A stretch of 64,000 nt of DNA from Stigmatella aurantiaca DW4/3-1 (GTDB taxonomy: Bacteria; Myxococcota; Myxococcia; Myxococcales; Myxococcaceae): contig NC_014623.1 of assembly GCF_000165485.1 (NCBI RefSeq), forward strand, positions 3,243,501 to 3,307,500, read 5' to 3'. The notes under the pieces were generated by a model. It saw nothing but the letters and a program-made list of their open reading frames with translations, did no database searches and was not told where the DNA came from. The translations under genes were made by a program, and so were the position numbers. Positions 42,061-58,329 of this stretch are shown piece by piece; within the stretch, counting starts at the first letter, position 1; the number at the start of each line of letters is the position of its first letter.

Positions 42061-42070
42061 CCATAAGAAC

Positions 42071-42150
42071 GGCCGGGACACACGCGAAGGTGCGCTACCG
42101 TTGCTTCCTTCCGGACCTGGCGGGGTTCACGTCCCCACGTTGTCCCGACC
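42071..42150 (-). ncRNA. ffs: Signal recognition particle RNA (small bacterial type)
   Basis: About 80 nt on the minus strand. The ends GGTCGGGACA and TGTCCCGGCC pair over ten positions, and the apical part contains CAGGTCCGGAAGGAAGCA, the conserved Ffh-binding symmetric loop and GGAA tetraloop of 4.5S RNA. No Alu domain is present. It is the last gene of the translation cluster, 18 bp after tRNA-Ser(GGA), and followed by a terminator. Confidence 0.93.
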
Positions 42151-42167
42151 ACAACAACAACATACAA

Positions 42168-42254
42168 CGGAGGGGGTGGGATTCGAACCCACGATACCCG
42201 TTAAGATATACACGCGTTCCAGGCGTGCGCCTTCAACCGCTCGGCCACCCCTCC
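42168..42254 (-). tRNA. tRNA-Ser (anticodon GGA)
   Basis: 87 nt with the long variable arm of serine tRNAs. The acceptor arms GGAGGGG and CCCCTCC pair; the anticodon loop reads CTGGAAC. CCA is not encoded. It reads UCC and UCU codons. Confidence 0.95.
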
Positions 42255-42267
42255 AAGACACAGAGAG

Positions 42268-42354
42268 CGGAGAGCGTAGGATTCGAACCTACGGTACCGT
42301 TGCCGGTACGCCTGATTTCGAGTCAGGTGCCTTCGACCACTCGGCCAGCTCTCC
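42268..42354 (-). tRNA. tRNA-Ser (anticodon CGA)
   Basis: 87 nt with a long variable arm. Acceptor arms GGAGAGC and GCTCTCC pair; the anticodon loop reads CTCGAAA. It begins only six bases after the tadA stop codon, so it must be cut from a transcript shared with tadA or have an internal promoter. Confidence 0.95.
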
Positions 42355-42360
42355 AAATAT

Positions 42361-42825
42361 TCACTTGTCGCGCTTCTTCTCTCGCAGACGCTCGAAGAAG
42401 CCCTTGAGAAGCTGGCGGCTTTCGTCCGCCAGAATGCCACTTGTCACCTGGAGCCGGTGGTTGTGCCGGGGCTCTTCAACCAGATTGTAGAGCGAACCGG
42501 CCGCGCCCGCCTTCGGATCCAGGGTTCCGAATACCAGCCGGGTGACCCGGCCTTGGACCATGGCACCCGCGCACATCGCGCAAGGCTCCAAGGTCACGTA
42601 CAGGGTGACACCGGTGAGCCGCCAGACCCCCAGGGACCGGGCTGCCGCATCGAGCGCGAGCAGCTCCGCGTGTGCGAAGGGGTGGCGGTCGATTTCCCGG
42701 CGGTTGAAGCCCGTGCCGATGACCTGGCCCTGGTGAACCGCAACGGCGCCCACGGGCACTTCTCCGAGGGCTTCGGCTTCCCGCGCGAGCGCAAGCGCCT
42801 GCTGCATGAAAGCCTCGTCACTCAT
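42361..42825 (-). CDS. tadA: tRNA adenosine(34) deaminase TadA
   Basis: 154 residues, the usual length. The zinc site is complete: His52 and the catalytic Glu54 in the HAE motif, and Cys82/Cys85 in PCAMC. It converts A34 to inosine in tRNA-Arg(ACG), its only essential bacterial substrate. That tRNA gene ends 24 bp upstream of the tadA start, and a tRNA-Ser follows 6 bp downstream. The start ATG at 42825 lacks a clear Shine-Dalgarno sequence. Confidence 0.95.
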   Translation of the reverse strand: MSDEAFMQQALALAREAEALGEVPVGAVAVHQGQVIGTGFNRREIDRHPFAHAELLALDAAARSLGVWRLTGVTLYVTLEPCAMCAGAMVQGRVTRLVFGTLDPKAGAAGSLYNLVEEPRHNHRLQVTSGILADESRQLLKGFFERLREKKRDK

Positions 42826-42849
42826 AGAGACGCGCCGCGAGAAAGAGAG

Positions 42850-42923
42850 CGCTCCCTGGAGGATTCGAACCTCCGGCCTTCGGATTCGTAGTCCGACGCT
42901 CTATCCAGCTGAGCTAAGGGAGC
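42850..42923 (-). tRNA. tRNA-Arg (anticodon ACG)
   Basis: 74 nt. Acceptor arms GCTCCCT and AGGGAGC pair; the anticodon loop reads CTACGAA. A34 is the deamination target of TadA, encoded immediately downstream. It reads CGU, CGC and CGA after conversion to ICG. Confidence 0.95.
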
Positions 42924-42955
42924 AAGTCTTTCGACGCCGCTACAACGATAAGTGG

Positions 42956-43042
42956 CGGAGAGAGAGGGATTCGAACCCTCGATACCCTTTCGAGTATGCA
43001 GGTTTAGCAAACCTGTGCCTTCAGCCTCTCGGCCATCTCTCC
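42956..43042 (-). tRNA. tRNA-Ser (anticodon GCT)
   Basis: 87 nt with a long variable arm. Acceptor arms GGAGAGA and TCTCTCC pair; the anticodon loop reads TTGCTAA. It reads AGC and AGU codons. Confidence 0.95.
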
Positions 43043-43086
43043 AACTTTTCTCTGTCAAAGAACCGCACAAGGCAAGCACTAAATAT

Positions 43087-43173
43087 CGGAGGAGGTAGGA
43101 TTCGAACCTACGGAGAGCTTTCACCCTCTGCGGTTTTCAAGACCGCTGCCTTCAGCCGCTCGGCCACTCCTCC
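43087..43173 (-). tRNA. tRNA-Ser (anticodon TGA)
   Basis: 87 nt with a long variable arm. Acceptor arms GGAGGAG and CTCCTCC pair; the anticodon loop reads CTTGAAA. It lies 81 bp after the serS stop codon and is first in the tRNA series. Confidence 0.95.
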
Positions 43174-48965: not shown

Positions 48966-50282
48966 ATGGATCCCACCGTCATTCTCGGCGCGGGCCTCGC
49001 GGGCCTCTCCGCCGCCCATTTCCTCAAGCGTCCCTGGCGGTTGATCGAGAAGACCGATCGCGTCGGCGGCCTCATCAAGACCGAGGTCATCGAGGGCTGC
49101 TATTTCGACCCCACGGGGCACTGGCTGCACCTGAGGGACCCCGAGATCCGGGAGTTGGTGAACACGCGCTGGCTGCCTGGACAGATGGTGAGCATCCAGC
49201 GCAAGGCGGCCATCTTCTCGCGGGGGGTCTTCACGCGCTTTCCCTACCAGGTGAACACCCACGGGCTGCCGCCGGAGGTCGTCGCGGAGAACCTGGTGGG
49301 CTACGTGGAGGCCATCTACGGCGAGAAGGGGCGCGCGCTGCGGGAGCGGGAGCCGCGCAACTTCGAGGAGTTCATCCTGCGCTACATGGGGGAGGGCTTC
49401 GCGAAGAACTTCATGGTCCCCTACAACCAGAAGCTCTGGACGGTGCACCCCCGCGAGCTGTCCGCGGCGTGGGTGGGCCGCTTCGTGCCCCGGCCCAGCC
49501 TCAAGGAAGTGGTGGATGGGGCGCTGGGGGTGGGCAGCGATGCGCTGGGCTACAACGCCTCGTTCCTGTACCCCCGCGAGGGCGGCATCGAGAGCCTCGC
49601 CCAGGCCATGCTGCGGGGTCTGGAGGGGGGCGAGGTGAGCGTTCGCACCGAGCCCACCGCGATTGACTGGAAGGCCCGCCGGGTCACGCTCTCCGACGGG
49701 CGGACCCTCGGCTACTCGGAGCTGCTGTCCACGCTGCCCTTGCCCTACCTGGTACGTCTGCTCGCGCAGGGGGCCTCGGGCGTGCCGGACGAGGTGCTGG
49801 CCGCCGCGGGCCGCCTTCGGGCAACCACGGTCACCTATGTCTGCGTGGGCGCCCGGGGAAAGAACCGGCAGCCCTGGCATTGGATCTACCTGCCCGAGAC
49901 GGAGTTCACGACCTACCGCATCGGGTCTCCGTCCGCGGTCTACGAGCCCCTGGCACCGCCCGAGACGGCCACCTTCTACGTGGAGTACAGCCACCACGGG
50001 GAGCTGTCGCCCGCCCAGTGCGAGCAGTTCGCGGTCAAGGAACTCGTCCTCTCCCAGATGGTCCACGCGCCAGAGGACATCCTCTTCGCCCGGGCCGTGG
50101 AGATTCCCCATGCCTACGTCCTCTACGACGACGCGTATGGCCCGGCGAAGGCGGAGATCCTCCGCTTCCTGGAGCACGCGCGCATCCTGACGGCCGGGCG
50201 CTATGGGCAGTGGGAGTATTCCTCCATGGAGGATGCCATCCTGGGCGGCCGGGCCTGTGCCCAGGTTCTCAACGCGCGGTGA
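48966..50282 (+). CDS. FAD-dependent oxidoreductase (UDP-galactopyranose-mutase-like)
   Basis: 438 residues from the ATG at 48966; the frame is open further upstream but without coding character. The FAD motif is TVILGAGLAGLSAAHFL, followed by VGGLIKTEVIEG and the aromatic GHWLHLRDPEI segment. PYNQKLWTVHPRELSAAWVGRFVP corresponds to the substrate loop of UDP-galactopyranose-mutase-like and protoporphyrinogen-oxidase-like enzymes. It begins a five-gene plus-strand set that looks like glycan or glycolipid synthesis. The upstream 229 bp separates it from the divergent TPR gene and should hold both promoters. Confidence 0.7.
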   Translation: MDPTVILGAGLAGLSAAHFLKRPWRLIEKTDRVGGLIKTEVIEGCYFDPTGHWLHLRDPEIRELVNTRWLPGQMVSIQRKAAIFSRGVFTRFPYQVNTHGLPPEVVAENLVGYVEAIYGEKGRALREREPRNFEEFILRYMGEGFAKNFMVPYNQKLWTVHPRELSAAWVGRFVPRPSLKEVVDGALGVGSDALGYNASFLYPREGGIESLAQAMLRGLEGGEVSVRTEPTAIDWKARRVTLSDGRTLGYSELLSTLPLPYLVRLLAQGASGVPDEVLAAAGRLRATTVTYVCVGARGKNRQPWHWIYLPETEFTTYRIGSPSAVYEPLAPPETATFYVEYSHHGELSPAQCEQFAVKELVLSQMVHAPEDILFARAVEIPHAYVLYDDAYGPAKAEILRFLEHARILTAGRYGQWEYSSMEDAILGGRACAQVLNAR

Positions 50283-50374
50283 CCGCGGGAAGGCATGTTC
50301 CTCATCTCGGCTGTCGACGGGTCGCCGGGAGCGTGCTAGGCCGCGCCCTCTGACCTGCACGGCATCCCTCGACC

Positions 50375-51085
50375 ATGGCCCCGTACCTGTCTGTCATCAT
50401 TCCCGTCTACAACGAGGCTTCGATCCTCGCCTCGGCCGCGGCGGAGCTGTGCCAGGGGCTGGATGCGCGAGGCTGGGACTACGAGGTCATCTTCGCGGAG
50501 AATGGTTCCCGGGACGCGACGCCGGAGTTGCTGGAGAAGCTGTGCGCCCAGAACCCGCGCCTGCACTGGTTCCATTCGGAGCGGCCCAACTACGGCGCGG
50601 CGCTCAAGGCCGGCATCACCCGCGCCCAGGGCACCTACGTGGTGTGCGATGAGATCGACCTGTGCGATCTCACCTTCTATGACGCGGCGTTGCCCCGGCT
50701 GGAGCGGGGCGAGGCGGACATGGTCGTCGGCTCCAAGGCCGCCAAGGGCGCCAGTGACCGGCGGCCCATGGTGCGGCGCGTGGCCACGCGCGTGCACAAC
50801 AAGCTGCTGAAGGTGATGCTGGACTTCCGGGGAACGGACACCCATGGGCTGAAGGCCTTCCGGCGCGAGGCCCTGTTGCCCGTCATCGCCCGGTGCGTGG
50901 TGGACATGGACGTGTTCGCCAGTGAGTTCGTCATCCGCGCCTGGCGGGAGGGCCTGAAGGTGATGGAGATCCCCATCCAGCTTCACGAGAAGCGCCAGCC
51001 CTCCATCCACCTCTTCCGGCGCGTGCCCAACGTGCTGAAGAACGTGGGGAAGCTCGTCTACGTCATCCGCATTCGCGGCACTTGA
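50375..51085 (+). CDS. Family 2 glycosyltransferase (dolichol-P-mannose-synthase-like)
   Basis: 236 residues. The GT-A fold begins LSVIIPVYNEASIL, with NGSRDATPELL and the acidic RAQGTYVVCDEIDLCDLTF segment where a DXD-like site is expected; it ends without a membrane domain (the polyprenyl-phosphate glycosyltransferase type). It probably transfers a sugar to undecaprenyl phosphate. It is 92 bp after the flavoprotein gene and 13 bp before the deacetylase gene. Confidence 0.8.
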   Translation: MAPYLSVIIPVYNEASILASAAAELCQGLDARGWDYEVIFAENGSRDATPELLEKLCAQNPRLHWFHSERPNYGAALKAGITRAQGTYVVCDEIDLCDLTFYDAALPRLERGEADMVVGSKAAKGASDRRPMVRRVATRVHNKLLKVMLDFRGTDTHGLKAFRREALLPVIARCVVDMDVFASEFVIRAWREGLKVMEIPIQLHEKRQPSIHLFRRVPNVLKNVGKLVYVIRIRGT

Positions 51086-51098
51086 GAGGGGGCACGCG

Positions 51099-52040
51099 AT
51101 GGCCTCCCGGCTCGCGTCCATCTCCGTCGATCTCGATTCGCTGCACCATTACTGCCGCATTCATGGGCTGCCCGAGACGGTGCTCGACGCGCGGGCCCGG
51201 GGCCTGGTGTACGCGAAGGCCGTGCCGCGCTTCCGGGAGCTGTGGGGCGCGCTGGGCGTGCCCGGGACGTTCTTCGCCATTGGGGAGGATCTCGCGGACG
51301 CGGGCGCCGCGGAGGCCCTGCGCCAGGCGCAGGCCGCGGGCGTCGAGATCGCCAACCACAGCTTCTCGCACGACTATGCCTTGAGCCGGCGGGCCCCCGA
51401 GTCCATTCACGAGGACCTGGCCCGTGGTGAGCAGGCCATCCTCGCGGCCACGGGCACGCGTCCGGTGGGTTTCCGCGCCCCGGGCTACACGCTGAACGCG
51501 GCCCTCTATGCGGCCACGGCGGCGCGGGGCTACCGCTACGGCTCCTCCGCCTTTCCCGCCGCGCCGTACTACGCGGCCAAGGCCACGGTGATGGGCGCGC
51601 TCGCGCTGGCCGGGCGTCCCTCGCGCTCGGTGCTCGACAGCCCCAGGGTCCTGCTGGCGCCGCGTGAGCCCTACCGGCCCGACCCCCGGCAGCCCTACCG
51701 GAGGGGCACGGGGACAGTGGTGGAACTGCCGATGACGGTGACGCCCGGCGCGCGGTTTCCCTTCATCGGAACGTTCGCGGCCACGCTGCCCATGTCCTTC
51801 ATCCGCGCGGCGTACCTCGCCTGCCGGGGCTCGGCCCTCTTCAACTTCGAGTTGCACGCGGTGGATGTGCTGGACGCCACGGACGGGATTCCCGCGGAGC
51901 TGGTGCGCCAGCAGCGGGACCTGCAAGTGCCCGCGGCGCGGAAGATGGAGCGGCTCGCCACCCTGTTCCGGTGGCTGAAGGCCGATGCCGACACCGTCAC
52001 GTTGCGGGAGGCGGCCGAACGGTTGGCGCCCGGTCTGTAG
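51099..52040 (+). CDS. Polysaccharide deacetylase (NodB-type)
   Basis: 313 residues. The NodB domain shows SISVDLDS (metal-binding Asp), VPGTFFAIGEDL and NHSFSHDY (the HxxxH metal pair), then PVGFRAPGY, the conserved substrate-binding loop. There is no clear signal peptide, suggesting cytoplasmic or lipid-linked intermediate action. The start ATG follows the GT2 stop by 13 bp. Expected role: removing an N-acetyl or O-acetyl group from a sugar intermediate made by the neighbouring glycosyltransferase. Confidence 0.85.
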   Translation: MASRLASISVDLDSLHHYCRIHGLPETVLDARARGLVYAKAVPRFRELWGALGVPGTFFAIGEDLADAGAAEALRQAQAAGVEIANHSFSHDYALSRRAPESIHEDLARGEQAILAATGTRPVGFRAPGYTLNAALYAATAARGYRYGSSAFPAAPYYAAKATVMGALALAGRPSRSVLDSPRVLLAPREPYRPDPRQPYRRGTGTVVELPMTVTPGARFPFIGTFAATLPMSFIRAAYLACRGSALFNFELHAVDVLDATDGIPAELVRQQRDLQVPAARKMERLATLFRWLKADADTVTLREAAERLAPGL

Positions 52041-52135
52041 ACGGCTTCCTCGCGGAGGTTCTGTGGAAGACGCCGTGAGCGCTTCGGCCGGACGAGCCCT
52101 CCCGGTGGGAGGAGGGGGATGTTAAAGAGTGGGCC

Positions 52136-52990
52136 ATGTTCGAGCAGCTCGGTGACAAGGTCCGGAAGCAGCTGAAGGGGTGGACGGAACAGATGGCGGG
52201 CCAGGAGCGCAAGGACAGGCTCCAGGCGCTCGCCCGCACGGAGAACGAGTACGGGGTGGACCCGTTCGGCTTCAACCTGGACTTCAGCCTCGCCGCGGTC
52301 GCGCCCCTGCTCTGGCTGTACCGCCACTACCACCGCGTGGAGACCTTCGGCCTCGAGAACCTGCCCCCCGGCCGCGTGCTCCTCGTCTCCAATCACTCCG
52401 GCCAGCTGCCCATGGACGGCGCCATGATTGGCGTGGCCCTGATGATGGAGGCCGACCCGCCGCGCGCCATCCGCAGCATGGTGGAGAAGTGGGTGCCTAC
52501 CCTTCCGTACATCTCCGCGTTCTTCGCCCGGGTGGGGCAGATTGTCGGCACGCCGGAGAACTGCCGCCGCCTGCTGGCCGCGGGGGAGGCCATCCTCGTG
52601 TTCCCCGAGGGCACGCGCGGCATCTCCAAGCTGTGGCCGCAGCGCTACCAGCTCCAGGACTTTGGCCTGGGCTTCATGCGGCTGGCGCTGGAGACGGACA
52701 CCCCGATTGTGCCCGTGGCCGTCATCGGCGCCGAGGAGCAGGCCCCGGCCCTGATGGACCTCAAGCCCCTGGCCCGGCTCTTGGGGTTCCCCTCGTTTCC
52801 CATCACCCCCACGGGGGTGCCCATCCCGCTGCCCACCAAGTACCGGCTCTATTTCGGCGAGCCCATGCGCTTCACCGGGCGCGCCGATGACGAGGACAGC
52901 GAGCTGGACAAGAAGGTGCGCACCGTGAGGGCCGCCATCCAGGCGATGATTCACCAGGGCCTCAAGGAGCGCCGGAGCATCTTCTGGTGA
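52136..52990 (+). CDS. Lysophospholipid/1-acylglycerol-3-phosphate acyltransferase family
   Basis: 284 residues. The PlsC-type blocks are VSNHSGQLPMDGA (His and Asp of the catalytic site, spaced HX6D as in hemolysin-like members), a short hydrophobic stretch, then FPEGTRGISKLWP. No signal peptide is seen, but a membrane-associated helix near residue 55 is likely. It may acylate a lipid or a glycolipid precursor. It is preceded by about 95 bp, enough for its own promoter. Confidence 0.8.
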   Translation: MFEQLGDKVRKQLKGWTEQMAGQERKDRLQALARTENEYGVDPFGFNLDFSLAAVAPLLWLYRHYHRVETFGLENLPPGRVLLVSNHSGQLPMDGAMIGVALMMEADPPRAIRSMVEKWVPTLPYISAFFARVGQIVGTPENCRRLLAAGEAILVFPEGTRGISKLWPQRYQLQDFGLGFMRLALETDTPIVPVAVIGAEEQAPALMDLKPLARLLGFPSFPITPTGVPIPLPTKYRLYFGEPMRFTGRADDEDSELDKKVRTVRAAIQAMIHQGLKERRSIFW

Positions 52991-53021
52991 GCCCCGGAGC
53001 GCATGCTATGAGGCAGGCTCC

Positions 53022-53945
53022 ATGAGACCGGCGATCGTCGTCACGGGCATCAGTGGCAACCTGGGCCGTACCCTCGCCAAGCTCTTGCACAAGAGCGAGC
53101 GCATCATCGGCATTGACCGGCGCCCCTTCGTGGGCCGGCCGAAGGATGTCGAGATGTACCAGTTGGACTTGCGCAAGAAGAAGGCCGAGGACGTCTTCCG
53201 CAAGAACGAGATCCGCGCCGTCATCCACATGGGCATCATGCACGACCCGCGCATGAGCGAGGAGGAGCACCACTCCTTCAACGTGGTGGGCACCACGCGC
53301 CTCCTGGAGTACTGCGCCAAGTACGGCGTGAAGAAGGTGGTCTTCCTCTCCTCCGCCAACGTCTATGGGCCCAGTCCGGACAACTCCAACTTCCTCACCG
53401 AGGACGCGCCCCTCATGGCGTCCAGCCGGTTCTCGGGGGTGCGGGACTTGATCGAAGTGGACATGCTCGCGCATGGCTTCTTCTGGCGGCACCCCGACAT
53501 CAACACCGTCATCCTCCGGCCCGTGCACATCGTGGGGCCCACCATCCGCAACGCCCCCTCCAACTACCTGCGGCTGCGCCACCCGTGGACGCTGGCCGGG
53601 TTTGATCCCATGGTGCAGCTCATCCACATGGAGGATGTGGCGCGCGCCATGGTGGAGGCCCTGCGGCCGGAGCCCAAGGGGGTCTACAACGTCGTCGGTC
53701 CGGGCGAGGTGCCGCTCTCGTCCGTGCTGCGCGAGCTGGGCCACGTCTCCATTCCCGTGCCCCATCCCATCGCTCGCCCCGTGCTGAGCATGCTCTTCAA
53801 GTACCGCCTCGCCAACTTCCCCCCGCCCGAGCTGGACCACATTCAGTTCCTCTGCAACGTGGATGGCAGCCGCTGGCGGAAGGAGCTGGGCTGGAAGCCC
53901 CACCACTCCATGCGCGATACGATTCGCTCCGTCATCGGCGAGTAG
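53022..53945 (+). CDS. Atypical NAD-dependent epimerase/SDR
   Basis: 307 residues. The Rossmann start VVTGISGNLGRTLAKLL and the SSANVYGP strand are typical of extended SDRs acting on nucleotide sugars. The catalytic YxxxK position reads FSGVR (SRFSGVRDLIEVD) after the expected ENAPL/EDAPL segment, so both Tyr and Lys appear replaced. It is therefore either catalytically atypical or an NAD-binding regulatory protein. It ends the plus-strand set 31 bp after the acyltransferase gene. Confidence 0.75.
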   Translation: MRPAIVVTGISGNLGRTLAKLLHKSERIIGIDRRPFVGRPKDVEMYQLDLRKKKAEDVFRKNEIRAVIHMGIMHDPRMSEEEHHSFNVVGTTRLLEYCAKYGVKKVVFLSSANVYGPSPDNSNFLTEDAPLMASSRFSGVRDLIEVDMLAHGFFWRHPDINTVILRPVHIVGPTIRNAPSNYLRLRHPWTLAGFDPMVQLIHMEDVARAMVEALRPEPKGVYNVVGPGEVPLSSVLRELGHVSIPVPHPIARPVLSMLFKYRLANFPPPELDHIQFLCNVDGSRWRKELGWKPHHSMRDTIRSVIGE

Positions 53946-53958
53946 TCTGAGGGGGCCT

Positions 53959-53978
53959 GACAGCGATGTCAGGGCCGT
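53959..53978. repeat. 7-bp stem-loop after the SDR gene
   Basis: CCTGACA and TGTCAGG form an inverted repeat with a 4-nt loop about 12 bp after the SDR stop, without a U-tract. It may mark the end of the operon. Confidence 0.3.
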
Positions 53979-54103
53979 TGAGGCCTTCAGCCCGAGCGTG
54001 CCTGACACCCCTGTCGTGCCTTGCCCCTCGCCCAGAAGTGCCTGGGCCCTGTCTCCCAGCGTAAGGTGTTGATTTCTGGGTGCTGGGTCGGCAAGCCCCA
54101 GGG

Positions 54104-54118
54104 TGGCACCCGCCTTGC
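54104..54118 (+). promoter_or_regulatory. Sigma-54 (-24/-12) promoter
   Basis: TGGCACCCGCCTTGC is an exact match to the sigma-54 consensus (TGGCAC, five bases, TTGC). The GG at 54105-54106 and GC at 54117-54118 give a predicted start near 54130. No coding sequence starts within the next 85 bp on this strand. Confidence 0.7.
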
Positions 54119-54129
54119 TTTAGAGATGC

Positions 54130-54216
54130 GGCAAGTAGACCTGGTTAGGGGGTTCCATAGGGGAACCCTCGACGCCCGTCGCCTCGGCCGGCCCCGAGTC
54201 GACGGGCGATTTTTTT
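54130..54216 (+). ncRNA. Candidate sigma-54-dependent small RNA
   Basis: The predicted transcript of about 85 nt begins near 54130 and ends in a strong intrinsic terminator. Inside it, GGGTTCC-ATAG-GGAACCC forms a perfect 7-bp stem; the terminator stem follows. No open frame with a start is present. The length and promoter type recall the myxobacterial developmental sRNA Pxr, but the run of seven C residues known in Pxr is missing, so it is treated as a separate, unnamed candidate. Its 3' end overlaps the 3' end of the convergent lipoprotein gene by a few bases. Confidence 0.55.
54172..54216 (+). terminator. Intrinsic terminator of the candidate small RNA
   Basis: CGCCCGTCG pairs with CGACGGGCG, extended inside by CTCGG/CCGAG, and is followed by a run of seven T at 54210-54216. 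It ends the only promoter-driven plus-strand unit here. Confidence 0.75.
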
Positions 54217-54634
54217 ACGGCAGCTCCCCCGCGAAGGGGCCTTCGAGCTGGCGCTCCAGGAGCCACACGCCCCCCTGGTAGATGAACTCCGAGGTGGTGG
54301 TGGCCGTTTGCTCGGAGACCGAGGGCAGCCGCATCCACTGAATGCGGCTGGTCACCGTGGCCCGCAGGCCATCCGGCGCCATCCCCACCTCGAGAATCTC
54401 GTAGTCGGTGATGGAGAGATCCCTCTCGTCCTGGAGCTCGCGCCGCGCCTTCAGGAAGGCCTCCTGGCGCTCGGGGATCAGGTGCCGCGCGGCCCCCCGG
54501 AAGTCCTTCCAGCGCAAGCGCTTGTAGAAGTCCTCCACCACCGGGCGCAGCCCTTCCAGGCCGGTGCTTGCCGCGGTGTGGGCGCACGCCCCACAAAGGA
54601 GGGCCAGCAGAAGAAGGGGGACAAGCAGGCGCAT
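54215..54634 (-). CDS. Small lipoprotein, unknown function
   Basis: 139 residues from the ATG at 54634 (a second one lies seven codons upstream). The signal peptide ends in LALLCGAC, a lipobox. The mature domain is helical at first (LRPVVEDFYKRLRWKDFRGAARHL) then beta-rich (YEILEVGMAPDGLRATVTSRIQWMRLP ... SEFIYQGGVWLLE), a pattern like NTF2-type or similar small folds. It is convergent with the small-RNA terminator. Confidence 0.65.
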   Translation of the reverse strand: MRLLVPLLLLALLCGACAHTAASTGLEGLRPVVEDFYKRLRWKDFRGAARHLIPERQEAFLKARRELQDERDLSITDYEILEVGMAPDGLRATVTSRIQWMRLPSVSEQTATTTSEFIYQGGVWLLERQLEGPFAGELP

Positions 54635-54729
54635 GATGGTGGGTGACGGTAACACCTGGAAGTGGACCTACAAGAAGATCCCAGTGCTATCGTCTCGGCT
54701 CCGCCTGCGCACCGGAGTTCCGAACGTCC

Positions 54730-57700
54730 ATGGCCAAGTCGATGGTGGAGCGGTACGAGCAGCTGTTGCTGCAAGACCCCAGTTCCGCGGTGTTCGTCGA
54801 GCTCGCCAAGGTCCTGCTTGAGAAGGGTGACATCACACGCGCCATCTCGACGTGTGAGCAAGGGGTGGTCCACCACCCGCACTCCATCATCGGACGCGTG
54901 TTGTGGGGCAAGGCCCTGCTGCAACAGGGCCGGCCCGCTCAGGCGATGGAGCAGTTCGATCAGGCCGTCGCCATCGATAAGGAGAACCCCCACGCCTACA
55001 ACCTCATCGGTGAGGTGCTGGTGCAACGGGGGTTGTTCCGCTCGGCACTGCCCATCCTGCGCAAGGCCGCCGCGCTTCAGCCCAACGATGCGCGGGTCCG
55101 CTTGTGGCTGGAGCAGACCCAGCAGTCGCTGGCCGGAGGCCCGCCGCCGGTGGTGGCGGATCTGCCGGGCATCACCGCCAACGCGCTCGCGGCGCAGGAG
55201 CTGAGTGACGAGCCCGACGCTCCCGCCGAGCCTGCGGCGGCGCCCGCGGCGGCGGCGCCCCCGGAAGAAGAAGAGCAGCCCGAGGTGACGGGCGTGATGA
55301 AGCTGCCGGTCATCTCGCTCGTGGACGAGAGGGACCTGGACGCCATCCCGCCCCCGCCGGCCGAGACCGATGCCTTCAGCGCCCCGGCGGGCGCGCGTCA
55401 GCAGGCCCTCTCCCGTCCCTCGCGGAAGGTGGAGGTCGTGATGTTCCCTCCCAAGCGCCCCTCGGGAACGCTTGCCTCCGTGACGGCGCCCCCTCCTCCG
55501 CCCCCCGGTTTTGGCGTGGAGGCGCAGGAGGAGCAGGCCGAGGACGACTTGGAGGACACCCCGCCGTATTCAGAGCGGGTCCCTTCCGAGTTTGATCCGT
55601 CGCAGGCGCAGGACGAGTTTCCCCCCGAAGAGGAGGCGCCGCCGGAGGAGGAGGCGCCGCTCTCCGCGTCTCAGGCACGGCGGCCCGCAGAGGACGCCGG
55701 GCAGGCTTCGCCCCCGTCTTCGGGAGGGGGACTGCTTGGAGATCTGCCTCCCCCCGACGAGTTGCCCGCGGTGCCCGCCGCGGCGCGTGTCTCTGACTCG
55801 GCCCGGAGCGCGTCGCCGTCCCGGAAGCGGGCCTCGGCCGCCCCCAAGCGCGCGCTGCTGGAGGACATTCCGGATGCCGCGGAGCCTCGGGCCGCCGCGG
55901 CCCCCCGCGCGGTCCGCGCCTCCGATGTGGATGCCGCGGCCAGCGCCGCCGCCTACGAGAAGGAACTGCGCGAGAAGCTCGCCAAGACGGCCACGGACTC
56001 CTCTTTCCTCTCCCGCCACGGGGTGAAGCTCATCGCGGGGGGCGTCTGCGCGGTGGTGCTGGCCGTGTTCGCGTGGGTCTACATCTCCCATCGCGCGGAG
56101 CAGGGAGGCAGGACGCTCGCGGAGGTGCTGGGGCGCACCGAGCGGGTCATCGCCCTCGACACGAGCGCCTCCCTGGAAGAGGCGCTCACGCTGCTCGACC
56201 GTGCGCGCGAGATGGACGACAGCAACAGCAAGGTCTGGGCGCTGACGGCCTATACGCATGCCCTTCTCTTCGCGGACCACGGCGCCGTGGCCGAGGACCG
56301 GCAGCAGGCGCTCGCGGCGCTGGAGCATCCAGGGGTGCGCGCCGAGCATCAGGGGCTCAGCCTGGCCACGGATGTGCTGGTGGCCGATGAGAAGGGGCGG
56401 GAGGCCGCCCGCCGCGCGTTGCTCAACTCCAGCGTGCAGGGTTCTGTCGAGGTGGATGCGCTCGCGGGCAGCCTGCTCCTGGAAATGAAGCAGCCCGAGA
56501 AGGCCTTGGAGCGCTTCAAGCAGGCCGTCGAGAGCGTCCGCGCGTTGGTGGCGTTGGGCCGCTACTACCAGGACTTCGACAACGCGGAGAAGGCCCTCAA
56601 CATGTACACGAATGCCCGGAAGCTCTCTCCGGAGCATCCCCTGGCGCGCATCGGCATGGCGGAGAGCCAGCTGGCGCTCGACCAGGATCTGAGCCTGGCG
56701 CTGGCGGACATGGAGGCGCTCGGCAAGAGCAAGGATCTGGTGGATCCCTTGCGCTCGCGGCAGCAGCTCATCCAGGGCCGGTTGCTGACGGAGCTGGGGC
56801 GATACGACGAGGCGCTGGCCTTGCTGGCCCAGGGGGTGAAGGGGCCGCTCGCGTTCGACTTCCACCTCGCCCTCGGCGATGCGGGCCGCGCGGCGGGGAA
56901 GCTCGAGGAGGCCCAGCAGGCGTATGAGGCCGCCCTCAAGCTCCAGCCCCGGAGCGAGGACGCCCGGGAAGGGCTGGGGCGCACGTTGCTGGACCGGGAC
57001 CGGGTGAAAGAGGTGCTCGCGCGGCTGGACGGGGAAGGCCGCAAGGTGGCCCTGGTGCGCGCGGCGGCCCACGTCCGGCAGGAGGACTGGAAGCGCGCCC
57101 GCGCCGAGCTGGAGAAGACGCGGGTGAACAACCGCTACCCGCTCGAGGCCGTCGGCTATCTGGCCCTGGCGGACACCATGGAGGGCAACGGCGATCAGGC
57201 GCGCGAGATCCTGGAGAAGGCCGTCAACGGCGTGAAGAAGCCCCGGACGGACCTCCGGGTGGCGCTCGGCCGGGTGTACTGGCGTCAGCGCTCGCTGGAC
57301 AAGGCGCAGGCCCAGTTCGAGGAGGCCATGAAGGATCCGCGCGACTATGAGGCCTCCTGCTCCGAGGGCCGGCTCCTGCTGGCGCGCGGGTTGCCGGACA
57401 TGGCCCTCAAGCCCCTCACGCAGGCGGTGGAGCGCAATGGCTTCCATGGCGAAGCCCGGGATGCGCTCGGCCGGGCCCTGCTCGCGCTGGGCCGCACGGA
57501 CGAGGGCTTCAAGCAGTTCGAGCGGTGGCGCGGGGACAACCCCGACAGCGCCAAGGCGCACAAGGGGTTCTCCCTGGCGCTCCTCCAGACGGGGAAGTTC
57601 CCCGAAGCGGTGGAGTCTTCCAGCCGCGCGGTGAAGCTCGATGCCAATGACGCCGAGGCGCACCGCCTCCGGGCAATCAGCCTCTTTGCCACCGGCGATG

Positions 57701-58329
57701 GCAAGGCCGCCTTCACGGCCCTGTCTCGCGCCAACAGCCTGGATCCCCGGGACCCAGAAACGTTCTGCGAGATTGGCCATGCCTTCCTCCGCCAGGGAGA
57801 CGCGGAGAACGCGGTGGCGGCCTTCGCGGCGGCGCGGCGCGAGGGACCCGATGTGACGTGTGGCCAGGTGGGCGAGCACTACGTCCATCCGTCCGAGGGG
57901 GGGCGCGCGGCGGCCAAGGCGCTGCAGGGCATCTCCGACCGGGCGAACGCCGTCTGGGACAAGGCCTTCGCGCAGACGGCCCTCGCCCGGGTGTTGCTGA
58001 GCGTGGGGGATGTGAAGGGCGCTCAGGCGGCCGCGGCGGAGGCCGTGAAGCTGGCGCCGTCCAGCGGGCGGGCGCAGCTGGCCCTGGGGCTCGTGGCCTT
58101 GCGCCAGCGGCAGGAGGAGCCCGCCCGGGCGGCGCTCACCAAGGCCGTGGAGCTGGATCCGGCCAATGGCATGGCCCGCCTGGCGCTGGCGGATCTGCTC
58201 GTGCGCAAGTCAGAGGATCTGCCGCAGGCCATCAAGGAGTATGAAGCGTTCCTCAAGCTGGCGGGTGGAACGGAAGAGGCGAAGCGGGTGAAGAAGGCCC
58301 TGCCTCCCCTCAAGAAACGAGCCAAGTAG
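54730..58329 (+). CDS. Large TPR membrane protein
   Basis: 1199 residues from the ATG at 54730; an in-frame ATG lies 29 codons upstream, in sequence of non-coding character. The N-terminal ~140 residues are three TPR units (MVERYEQLLLQDPSSAVFVELAKVLLEKGDITRAIS). A long Ala/Pro/Glu-rich linker (about 170-420) leads to a membrane helix at about 435-453 (LIAGGVCAVVLAVFAWVYI). The rest is a large TPR superhelix (VAYFQEA- and FEEAMKDPRDYEASCSEGRLLLARGL-type repeats). Topology resembles the 1369-residue zinc-ribbon protein, but with TPR units instead of a zinc ribbon at the N-terminus. It may be a scaffold across the inner membrane. Confidence 0.7.
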   Translation: MAKSMVERYEQLLLQDPSSAVFVELAKVLLEKGDITRAISTCEQGVVHHPHSIIGRVLWGKALLQQGRPAQAMEQFDQAVAIDKENPHAYNLIGEVLVQRGLFRSALPILRKAAALQPNDARVRLWLEQTQQSLAGGPPPVVADLPGITANALAAQELSDEPDAPAEPAAAPAAAAPPEEEEQPEVTGVMKLPVISLVDERDLDAIPPPPAETDAFSAPAGARQQALSRPSRKVEVVMFPPKRPSGTLASVTAPPPPPPGFGVEAQEEQAEDDLEDTPPYSERVPSEFDPSQAQDEFPPEEEAPPEEEAPLSASQARRPAEDAGQASPPSSGGGLLGDLPPPDELPAVPAAARVSDSARSASPSRKRASAAPKRALLEDIPDAAEPRAAAAPRAVRASDVDAAASAAAYEKELREKLAKTATDSSFLSRHGVKLIAGGVCAVVLAVFAWVYISHRAEQGGRTLAEVLGRTERVIALDTSASLEEALTLLDRAREMDDSNSKVWALTAYTHALLFADHGAVAEDRQQALAALEHPGVRAEHQGLSLATDVLVADEKGREAARRALLNSSVQGSVEVDALAGSLLLEMKQPEKALERFKQAVESVRALVALGRYYQDFDNAEKALNMYTNARKLSPEHPLARIGMAESQLALDQDLSLALADMEALGKSKDLVDPLRSRQQLIQGRLLTELGRYDEALALLAQGVKGPLAFDFHLALGDAGRAAGKLEEAQQAYEAALKLQPRSEDAREGLGRTLLDRDRVKEVLARLDGEGRKVALVRAAAHVRQEDWKRARAELEKTRVNNRYPLEAVGYLALADTMEGNGDQAREILEKAVNGVKKPRTDLRVALGRVYWRQRSLDKAQAQFEEAMKDPRDYEASCSEGRLLLARGLPDMALKPLTQAVERNGFHGEARDALGRALLALGRTDEGFKQFERWRGDNPDSAKAHKGFSLALLQTGKFPEAVESSSRAVKLDANDAEAHRLRAISLFATGDGKAAFTALSRANSLDPRDPETFCEIGHAFLRQGDAENAVAAFAAARREGPDVTCGQVGEHYVHPSEGGRAAAKALQGISDRANAVWDKAFAQTALARVLLSVGDVKGAQAAAAEAVKLAPSSGRAQLALGLVALRQRQEEPARAALTKAVELDPANGMARLALADLLVRKSEDLPQAIKEYEAFLKLAGGTEEAKRVKKALPPLKKRAK

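Follow-up and report, generated by a model that had tools for sequence, protein, structure and literature searches.

A predicted sigma-54-dependent small RNA gene of Stigmatella aurantiaca, with conserved counterparts in other Myxococcales

Small RNAs transcribed from sigma-54 promoters include NrsZ of Pseudomonas, composed of repeated units, and Qrr of Vibrio, present in multiple copies. Enhancer-dependent sigma-54 promoters are typically built from paired enhancer sites, an IHF site, and a -24/-12 box. For the myxobacteria, the available text of two papers (PMC5568312, PMC5684412) describes the sigma-54-driven RNA Pxr as known from one suborder and reports no Hfq. Few myxobacterial small RNAs have been studied; an RNA-seq study that counted small RNAs excluded them from its analysis, according to its available text (PMC9548883).

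The present analysis concerns a stretch of 64,000 nucleotides from Stigmatella aurantiaca DW4/3-1 (the window), in which an original prediction, made from the letters alone, had proposed an orphan small RNA gene with its own sigma-54 promoter. Comparison with related genomes makes it very probable that this is a real small RNA gene with an enhancer-type promoter. Its family is new, with no entry in Rfam 15, and its type, the sigma-54 small RNA, is already known. Among the papers listed in literature searches, none could be recognized by title or start of abstract as describing this RNA; a 2020 survey of Myxococcus xanthus non-coding RNAs (Whitworth and Swain, Mol. Omics), cited in the available part of PMC8538405, may list the transcript.

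The candidate element and its distribution

The exact -24/-12 promoter of the original prediction is present at 54104-54118 on the plus strand (TGGCAC-CCGCC-TTGC), and is the sole exact match to TGGCAC-N5-TTGC in the window, where shuffled sequence leads one to expect 0.16 (16 of 100 shuffles contain one). From the position of this box, transcription is predicted to start at about 54130, for a plus-strand RNA of some 87 nt (54130-54216). Its 72-nt core, 54145-54216, comprises two hairpins and a T7 terminator. Hairpin SL-A (54148-54170, nine pairs in the fold) bears the pentaloop AUAGG at 54157-54161, and the perfect 7-bp stem noted earlier proves to be its inner part. Terminator hairpin SL-B (54173-54208), with the apex CGGCCGGCCCCG at 54185-54196 and the loop CCGGCC, corresponds to the long hairpin described originally, and the seven-T tract is read directly from the letters at 54210-54216. 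A simple terminator scan of 50000-58000 did not include SL-B/T7 among its sites and returned three sites elsewhere (3.5 expected), so the terminator rests on the fold, the T tract, and conservation. The RNA fold of 54129-54217 has an energy of -44.3 kcal/mol (z = -3.0), a stability equaled in one of 200 shuffles. Because a single exact box is unremarkable and the fold only moderately unusual, the case for a small RNA rests on comparison.

That no open frame begins inside the element holds for ATG, GTG, and TTG alike, all absent from the plus strand of 54130-54216, and a coding reading was rejected on this ground. Frames at 54021-54281 (plus), 54080-54148 (plus), and 54120-54596 (minus) overlap the element from outside, and just 5' of the predicted start there is an ATG (54126). 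The element is flanked by an NAD-dependent epimerase gene (53022-53945, plus strand, PF01370) and a convergent lipoprotein-like gene (54215-54655, minus strand) with no Pfam match.

BLAST with 54090-54225 gave matches in 95 of the 96 genomes of family f1, mostly over query positions 51-127, which correspond to 54140 through the last T of the tract; those in G013 and G081 were weak and short, and fell at no place later found by model. The core scores 95.1 bits with our model R1, a value that is not independent of the model, since the window's own sequence (locus L001) was among the 54 units used to build it. Across the order, R1 identified the RNA in 102 of 145 genomes at E<=0.01, including 95 of the 96 in family f1, where the single miss, G013, is a genome 79% complete. 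Beyond this family, it matches one genome of f7 (G138) and five of f8 (G139-G143). A partial, weak match in f3 (G113, 26.8 bits) was discounted, and R1 had no match in the 12 f2 genomes shown, nor in the f3 genomes shown apart from that one. Searches of the class (101 of 147 genomes matched) and, with a second model, R2, of the phylum (101 of 195) added no genome outside the order; part of the genomes without a match were counted collectively rather than by name (23 in the order search, 26 in the class, 74 in the phylum). The RNA is retained in small genomes of 2.1-3.0 Mb (G084-G086, G141-G143), an observation that may weigh against a function limited to fruiting bodies.

For finer comparison, 54 loci were retrieved through the epimerase gene, and BLAST detected the RNA in 42 of them. 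Four of the remainder are contigs that end at the gene or too soon after it (L046, L064, L071, L082), and eight lack the RNA (L073-L076, L078, L079, L081, L083), L083 extending just 367 bases past the gene. The whole-genome loci L001-L030 contributed L001 (or the window), L002-L004, and L008; among the rest are several that duplicate epimerase-retrieved contigs. All of these loci are related by descent, so that counts over them are not counts of independent events. One locus with a three-unit, Myxococcus-like version, L039 (BNCN01000011.1), is labelled Comamonas sp. KCTC 72670, and is probably a mislabelled record.

Two alignments were examined for covariation. Alignment A1 (54 of 55 units, L004 omitted) was made without reference to structure, and yielded a 22-pair consensus in which 12 pairs already have double changes. 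Alignment A2, fitted to the model and therefore favoring structure, has 64 units (59 distinct) of f1, f7, and f8 from 53 chosen sources. In A2, 99.2% of cells pair, against 90.1% when shuffled; 16 of the 22 pairs show double changes, against 8.4; and double-change cells number 154, against 40.5 in shuffles and 6-21 in controls with pairing partners slid by 1-3 columns, where pairing falls to 35-58%. Both hairpins contribute, with double changes in seven of eight pairs of SL-A and nine of 14 pairs of SL-B. The SL-A loop reads A-U-N-G-G in 63 of 64 units, with a closing pair that varies among C-G, A-U, and G-C, and this constancy above a changing pair argues for recognition of the loop. Likewise, the 12-nt SL-B apex is the same in every one of the 64 units even though the pairs below it covary. 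Sequence that is conserved yet unpaired consists of AUNGG, CCGGCC, and a linker of 2 nt that is altered in f8; because the 5' leader is short and variable in many loci, the loops and linker are what remains of conserved unpaired sequence. In a number of loci, promoter and core are separated by an additional 5' insert resembling a hairpin. The AUNGG pentaloop and the CGGCCGGCCCCG apex are the likely contact elements of the RNA.

Most genomes carry one unit. All 27 genomes of genus g19 (G053-G079; Myxococcus or Pyxidicoccus by name) have two to four R1 matches each, and at ten tandem loci the last unit has 7 T of 8 where internal units have 4-6 of 8, a weakening that suggests read-through into one multi-unit RNA. 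At odds with simple modularity, the minimum-energy structure predicted for four units in a row, a single-sequence prediction with an ensemble frequency of 0.0004, has units pairing with each other instead of forming eight separate hairpins.

Promoter, putative enhancer sites, and the search for an activator

The pattern TGGC(A/C)-N6-(T/C)TGC occurs within 140 nt upstream of the RNA at 55 of 58 loci, compared with a mean of 0.365 and a maximum of three loci in 200 dinucleotide shuffles. It is absent from L055, L067, and L096, and the box of L100 is doubtful; L105 and L108, from small genomes, have degenerate TGGCC boxes, counted in the 55, and no enhancer site. (L055 and L106 denote the same place, which is represented by both in the 59-locus set used below and by L055 alone in the 58-locus set.) Upstream of the box in the window are two palindromes of the type CTGACA-N4-TGTCAG, 45 bp apart: a distal one, CTGACAGCGATGTCAG, at 53957-53972, which is one of three exact copies in the genome, and a proximal site, TGACACCCCTGTC, at 54003-54015. 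The core pattern TGACA-N4-TGTC is found in the 320 nt upstream at 39 of 58 loci (shuffles: mean 0.045, maximum two). The other 19 lack the strict form, and a relaxed form is present in 50 of 59. Two sites occur at 22 of 58 loci, with none in shuffles, and their spacing is 45 bp in 21 cases and 46 bp in one. Between enhancer and promoter, at 54062-54075, lies an IHF-like site, TAAGGTGTTGATTT, so labelled after the IHF consensus; its relaxed pattern, YAA-N4-YTGA, is found between enhancer and box at 29 of 59 loci, a count with no shuffle baseline. The upstream palindromes are putative activator sites, a feature that marks the class of sigma-54-dependent small RNAs.

Comparison among relatives, then, shows a conserved RNA with two hairpins and a predicted terminator, preceded by a conserved arrangement of putative enhancer sites and sigma-54 box. 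The original prediction had proposed a covariance-model search and had named lack of conservation of promoter and hairpins as evidence against itself; that search was run, and both are conserved. The frequency of the box and the covariation in both hairpins support its central claim, a small RNA gene with its own sigma-54 promoter.

In the S. aurantiaca genome, CTGACA-N4-TGTCAG occurs at 14 sites with no more than one mismatch, three of them exact; the reversed pattern occurs at three. Seven other genomes contain 19 exact sites, against zero for the reversed pattern, and 16 of the 19 were inspected (all but three of G018). An exact site stands at the small RNA promoter in six of the seven, the sole exact site of G059 being elsewhere. 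Inspection of these sites, covering all 14 own-genome loci for TGGC-type boxes and five of them for near-boxes, found a TGGC-type box after the enhancer site, away from the small RNA, at L109 and L126, and CGGC-type near-boxes at L110, L112, and L123. At L109 (1501-2218; G000:2616360), an exact palindrome lies 79 bp before an exact TGGCAC-N5-TTGC, ahead of a 193-aa frame whose N-terminus is signal-like and for which Pfam gives no match; the boxed site of L126 precedes a lipoprotein gene. Because other exact palindromes are few, and few of those inspected are boxed, it seems that in these eight genomes, with three sites uninspected, the activator has the small RNA as its principal conserved target. 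In two f8 loci, L095 (3850-5673) and L099 (1-1514), the RNA precedes a gene for a Cys-rich repeat lipoprotein with an enhancer site and box of its own, probably co-regulated with the small RNA. Boxed sites before genes for a signal-like protein (L109) or lipoproteins (L126, L095, L099) give a slight hint of a link to the envelope. The enhancer-binding-protein motif GAFTGA was found in none of the examined loci except the pxr locus L085, and its one match in the window was judged spurious; the description of the gene as an orphan fits so far.

Proposed function and its alternatives

The explanation we favor, with somewhat better than even confidence, is a stand-alone gene for a trans-acting small RNA of about 87 nt, driven by sigma-54 and an enhancer and acting through invariant loops. 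An NtrC-type activator would bind the CTGACA-N4-TGTCAG sites, the DNA would bend at the IHF-like site, and sigma-54 polymerase would be fired at 54104-54118, with transcription beginning near 54130 and ending at the T7 tract. With less assurance, we propose that the RNA acts by way of its loops: the C-rich 12-nt apex would most likely pair with G-rich mRNA segments to alter translation or decay, and the AUNGG hairpin may be a protein-docking element. In Myxococcus and Pyxidicoccus, two to four units behind one promoter, with interrupted internal T tracts, would be expected to yield either one RNA spanning several units or a series of RNAs of stepped length. We rank base-pairing by the apex first and protein titration second. 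The apex consists of G and C only, so chance complements must be frequent, and it is also self-complementary; both points count against apex-mRNA pairing. A search for CsrA family proteins found none in 20 related genomes (the control for this search gave hits in 3 of 14 known genomes). With no CsrA in these 20 and no reported Hfq, either route needs another helper, if any.

Among described RNAs, CsrB and RsmY titrate CsrA, and CrcZ titrates Hfq/Crc. A sponge for CsrA itself is rejected here, there being no CsrA family protein in any of the 20 genomes. Sequestration of some other RNA-binding protein by the AUNGG hairpin, with or without SL-B, is a genuine possibility that we nevertheless regard as doubtful. 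It would account for a pentaloop that stays constant while its closing pair covaries, for the scarcity of conserved unpaired seed sequence, and for the tandem units of g19 with weakened internal T tracts, which would raise valency; yet most genomes have a single unit, the absence of CsrA and of any Hfq in the cited text would demand a new partner, and the constancy of the 12-nt apex would be left unexplained. That apex is self-complementary (GGCCGGCC, in 64 of 64 units), and kissing loops might therefore join RNAs into homodimers or multimers, for example as a scaffold. The pairing between units in the four-unit fold agrees with such a role, but it is a single-sequence prediction of very low ensemble frequency, and AUNGG would go unexplained; we consider multimerization improbable.

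The favored reading, a free-standing small RNA gene, must also be weighed against the idea that the conserved element serves mainly to terminate the epimerase mRNA or to direct its 3' processing, with an incidental promoter. The RNA does lie directly downstream of the epimerase gene in the window, in the 42 of 54 epimerase-retrieved loci, and in L094 (f7), L101, and L106, but no epimerase gene was detected in the f8 stretches (L095-L100) or in those of L105 and L108 from small f1 genomes, of which L108 retains the lipoprotein-like gene. The gene preceding the RNA at L098 encodes an FHA-GAF-cyclase, and genes of similar appearance occur at L096 and L097. Even with other genes as neighbors, the RNA is still accompanied by box and enhancer site in f8 (L095, L097, L098, L099) and in a second, dispersed copy in G001 (L102); a module that stays intact while its neighbors change is a gene rather than a 3' UTR feature. 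A terminator, moreover, has no need of invariant loops, nor of a box and enhancer sites conserved far above shuffles. Given the changed neighbors and the conserved promoter architecture, we reject this as the main reading and think it very unlikely. The original prediction had left open whether the RNA was a new regulator or a diverged Pxr; the former stands, and the latter, or a Pxr paralogue, has a negligible probability. The two RNAs do share a clade, a drive by sigma-54, and a structure of several hairpins, and each has tandem paralogues in some genera. The M. xanthus pxr gene, located with a published primer (given in the available text of PMC5684412) at about 1501-1650 on the minus strand of L085, shows TGGCACGGCGACTGC and a CCCCCCC loop, against AUAGG in SL-A here, which bears out the remark that the C7 run of Pxr is missing. 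The best R1 score on that locus, 8.5 bits (E 4.8) at 38-121 on the plus strand, lies away from pxr. S. aurantiaca has its own pxr (G000:2016761-2016910, 89% identity), about 1.28 Mb from the new RNA, so the two genes coexist at different places, and Pxr identity is contradicted.

More speculatively, the RNA might be a core sigma-54 output of the Myxococcales, older than Pxr and served by a dedicated activator, its AUNGG hairpin docking a protein that replaces Hfq or CsrA and its tandem units in Myxococcus tuning dose; we hold this composite picture to be unlikely as a whole. According to the available text of PMC12316311, M. xanthus is the only organism for which loss of sigma-54 by deletion is reported to be lethal; speculatively, a core small RNA of this kind could be one reason. 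The regulatory input is readable (paired enhancer sites, IHF-like site, sigma-54 box) and two contact elements are invariant, so activator, partner, and target are each testable with small mutations. The RNA would also give Rfam a ready-made family.

Comparison with Pxr and other known RNAs

At the gathering threshold, Rfam 15 gives seven matches in the window, all to tRNA or SRP RNA elsewhere and none at the element, and at E<=10 nothing credible covers it; GlmY, NrsZ, and Qrr families are absent from the results for this region. The best sub-threshold match, RF02870 (ncS035, Burkholderia sRNA 35), spans 54080-54216 with 19.7 bits against a cut-off of 79, and its E-value of 0.018 for 381 bases was treated as chance. 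Separately, five tRNA genes and a small SRP RNA are clustered at 42063-43173 (minus strand); four of these tRNAs, each 87 nt with near-equal scores, form two pairs.

Within the order, BLAST with M. xanthus pxr found matches in 85 of 145 genomes, every one of them in f1. No pxr match was obtained in 11 f1 genomes that carry the new RNA (G008, G045, G050, G052, G081-G086, G093), nor in the six f7 and f8 genomes, and G013 is the reverse case, with a pxr match and none to R1; single-query BLAST is less sensitive than a model, and some of these pxr absences may be misses. Since more genomes have the new RNA than a pxr match, the new RNA seems either to predate Pxr or to have been retained better. 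In each of G003, G006, G034, and G035, pxr matches lie five together at close spacing; three pxr copies are reported for Cystobacter in the available text of PMC5568312.

The new RNA thus resembles Pxr, as described in the available text of PMC5568312 and PMC5684412, in its sigma-54 promoter, its stem-loops, and its tandem paralogues in some genera. It differs in sequence and loops, in the lack of an R1 match to pxr, in pxr's occurrence in fewer genomes by BLAST, and in setting: pxr follows pxrK and the NtrC-like pxrR (available text of PMC5684412), whereas the new RNA follows an NAD-dependent epimerase gene. Activator sites described in myxobacteria, GCGCA-N5-TGCGC for NmpR and CT(C/G)CG(C/G)AG for Nla28, differ from CTGACA-N4-TGTCAG. 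In promoter layout, the enterobacterial GlmY, controlled by QseF, IHF, and sigma-54, is similar: the available text of PMC8745638 describes a sigma-54 site together with multiple sites for the activator and sites for IHF; there the QseF site is TGTC-N10-GACA, in contrast to the CTGACA-N4-TGTCAG palindromes found here.
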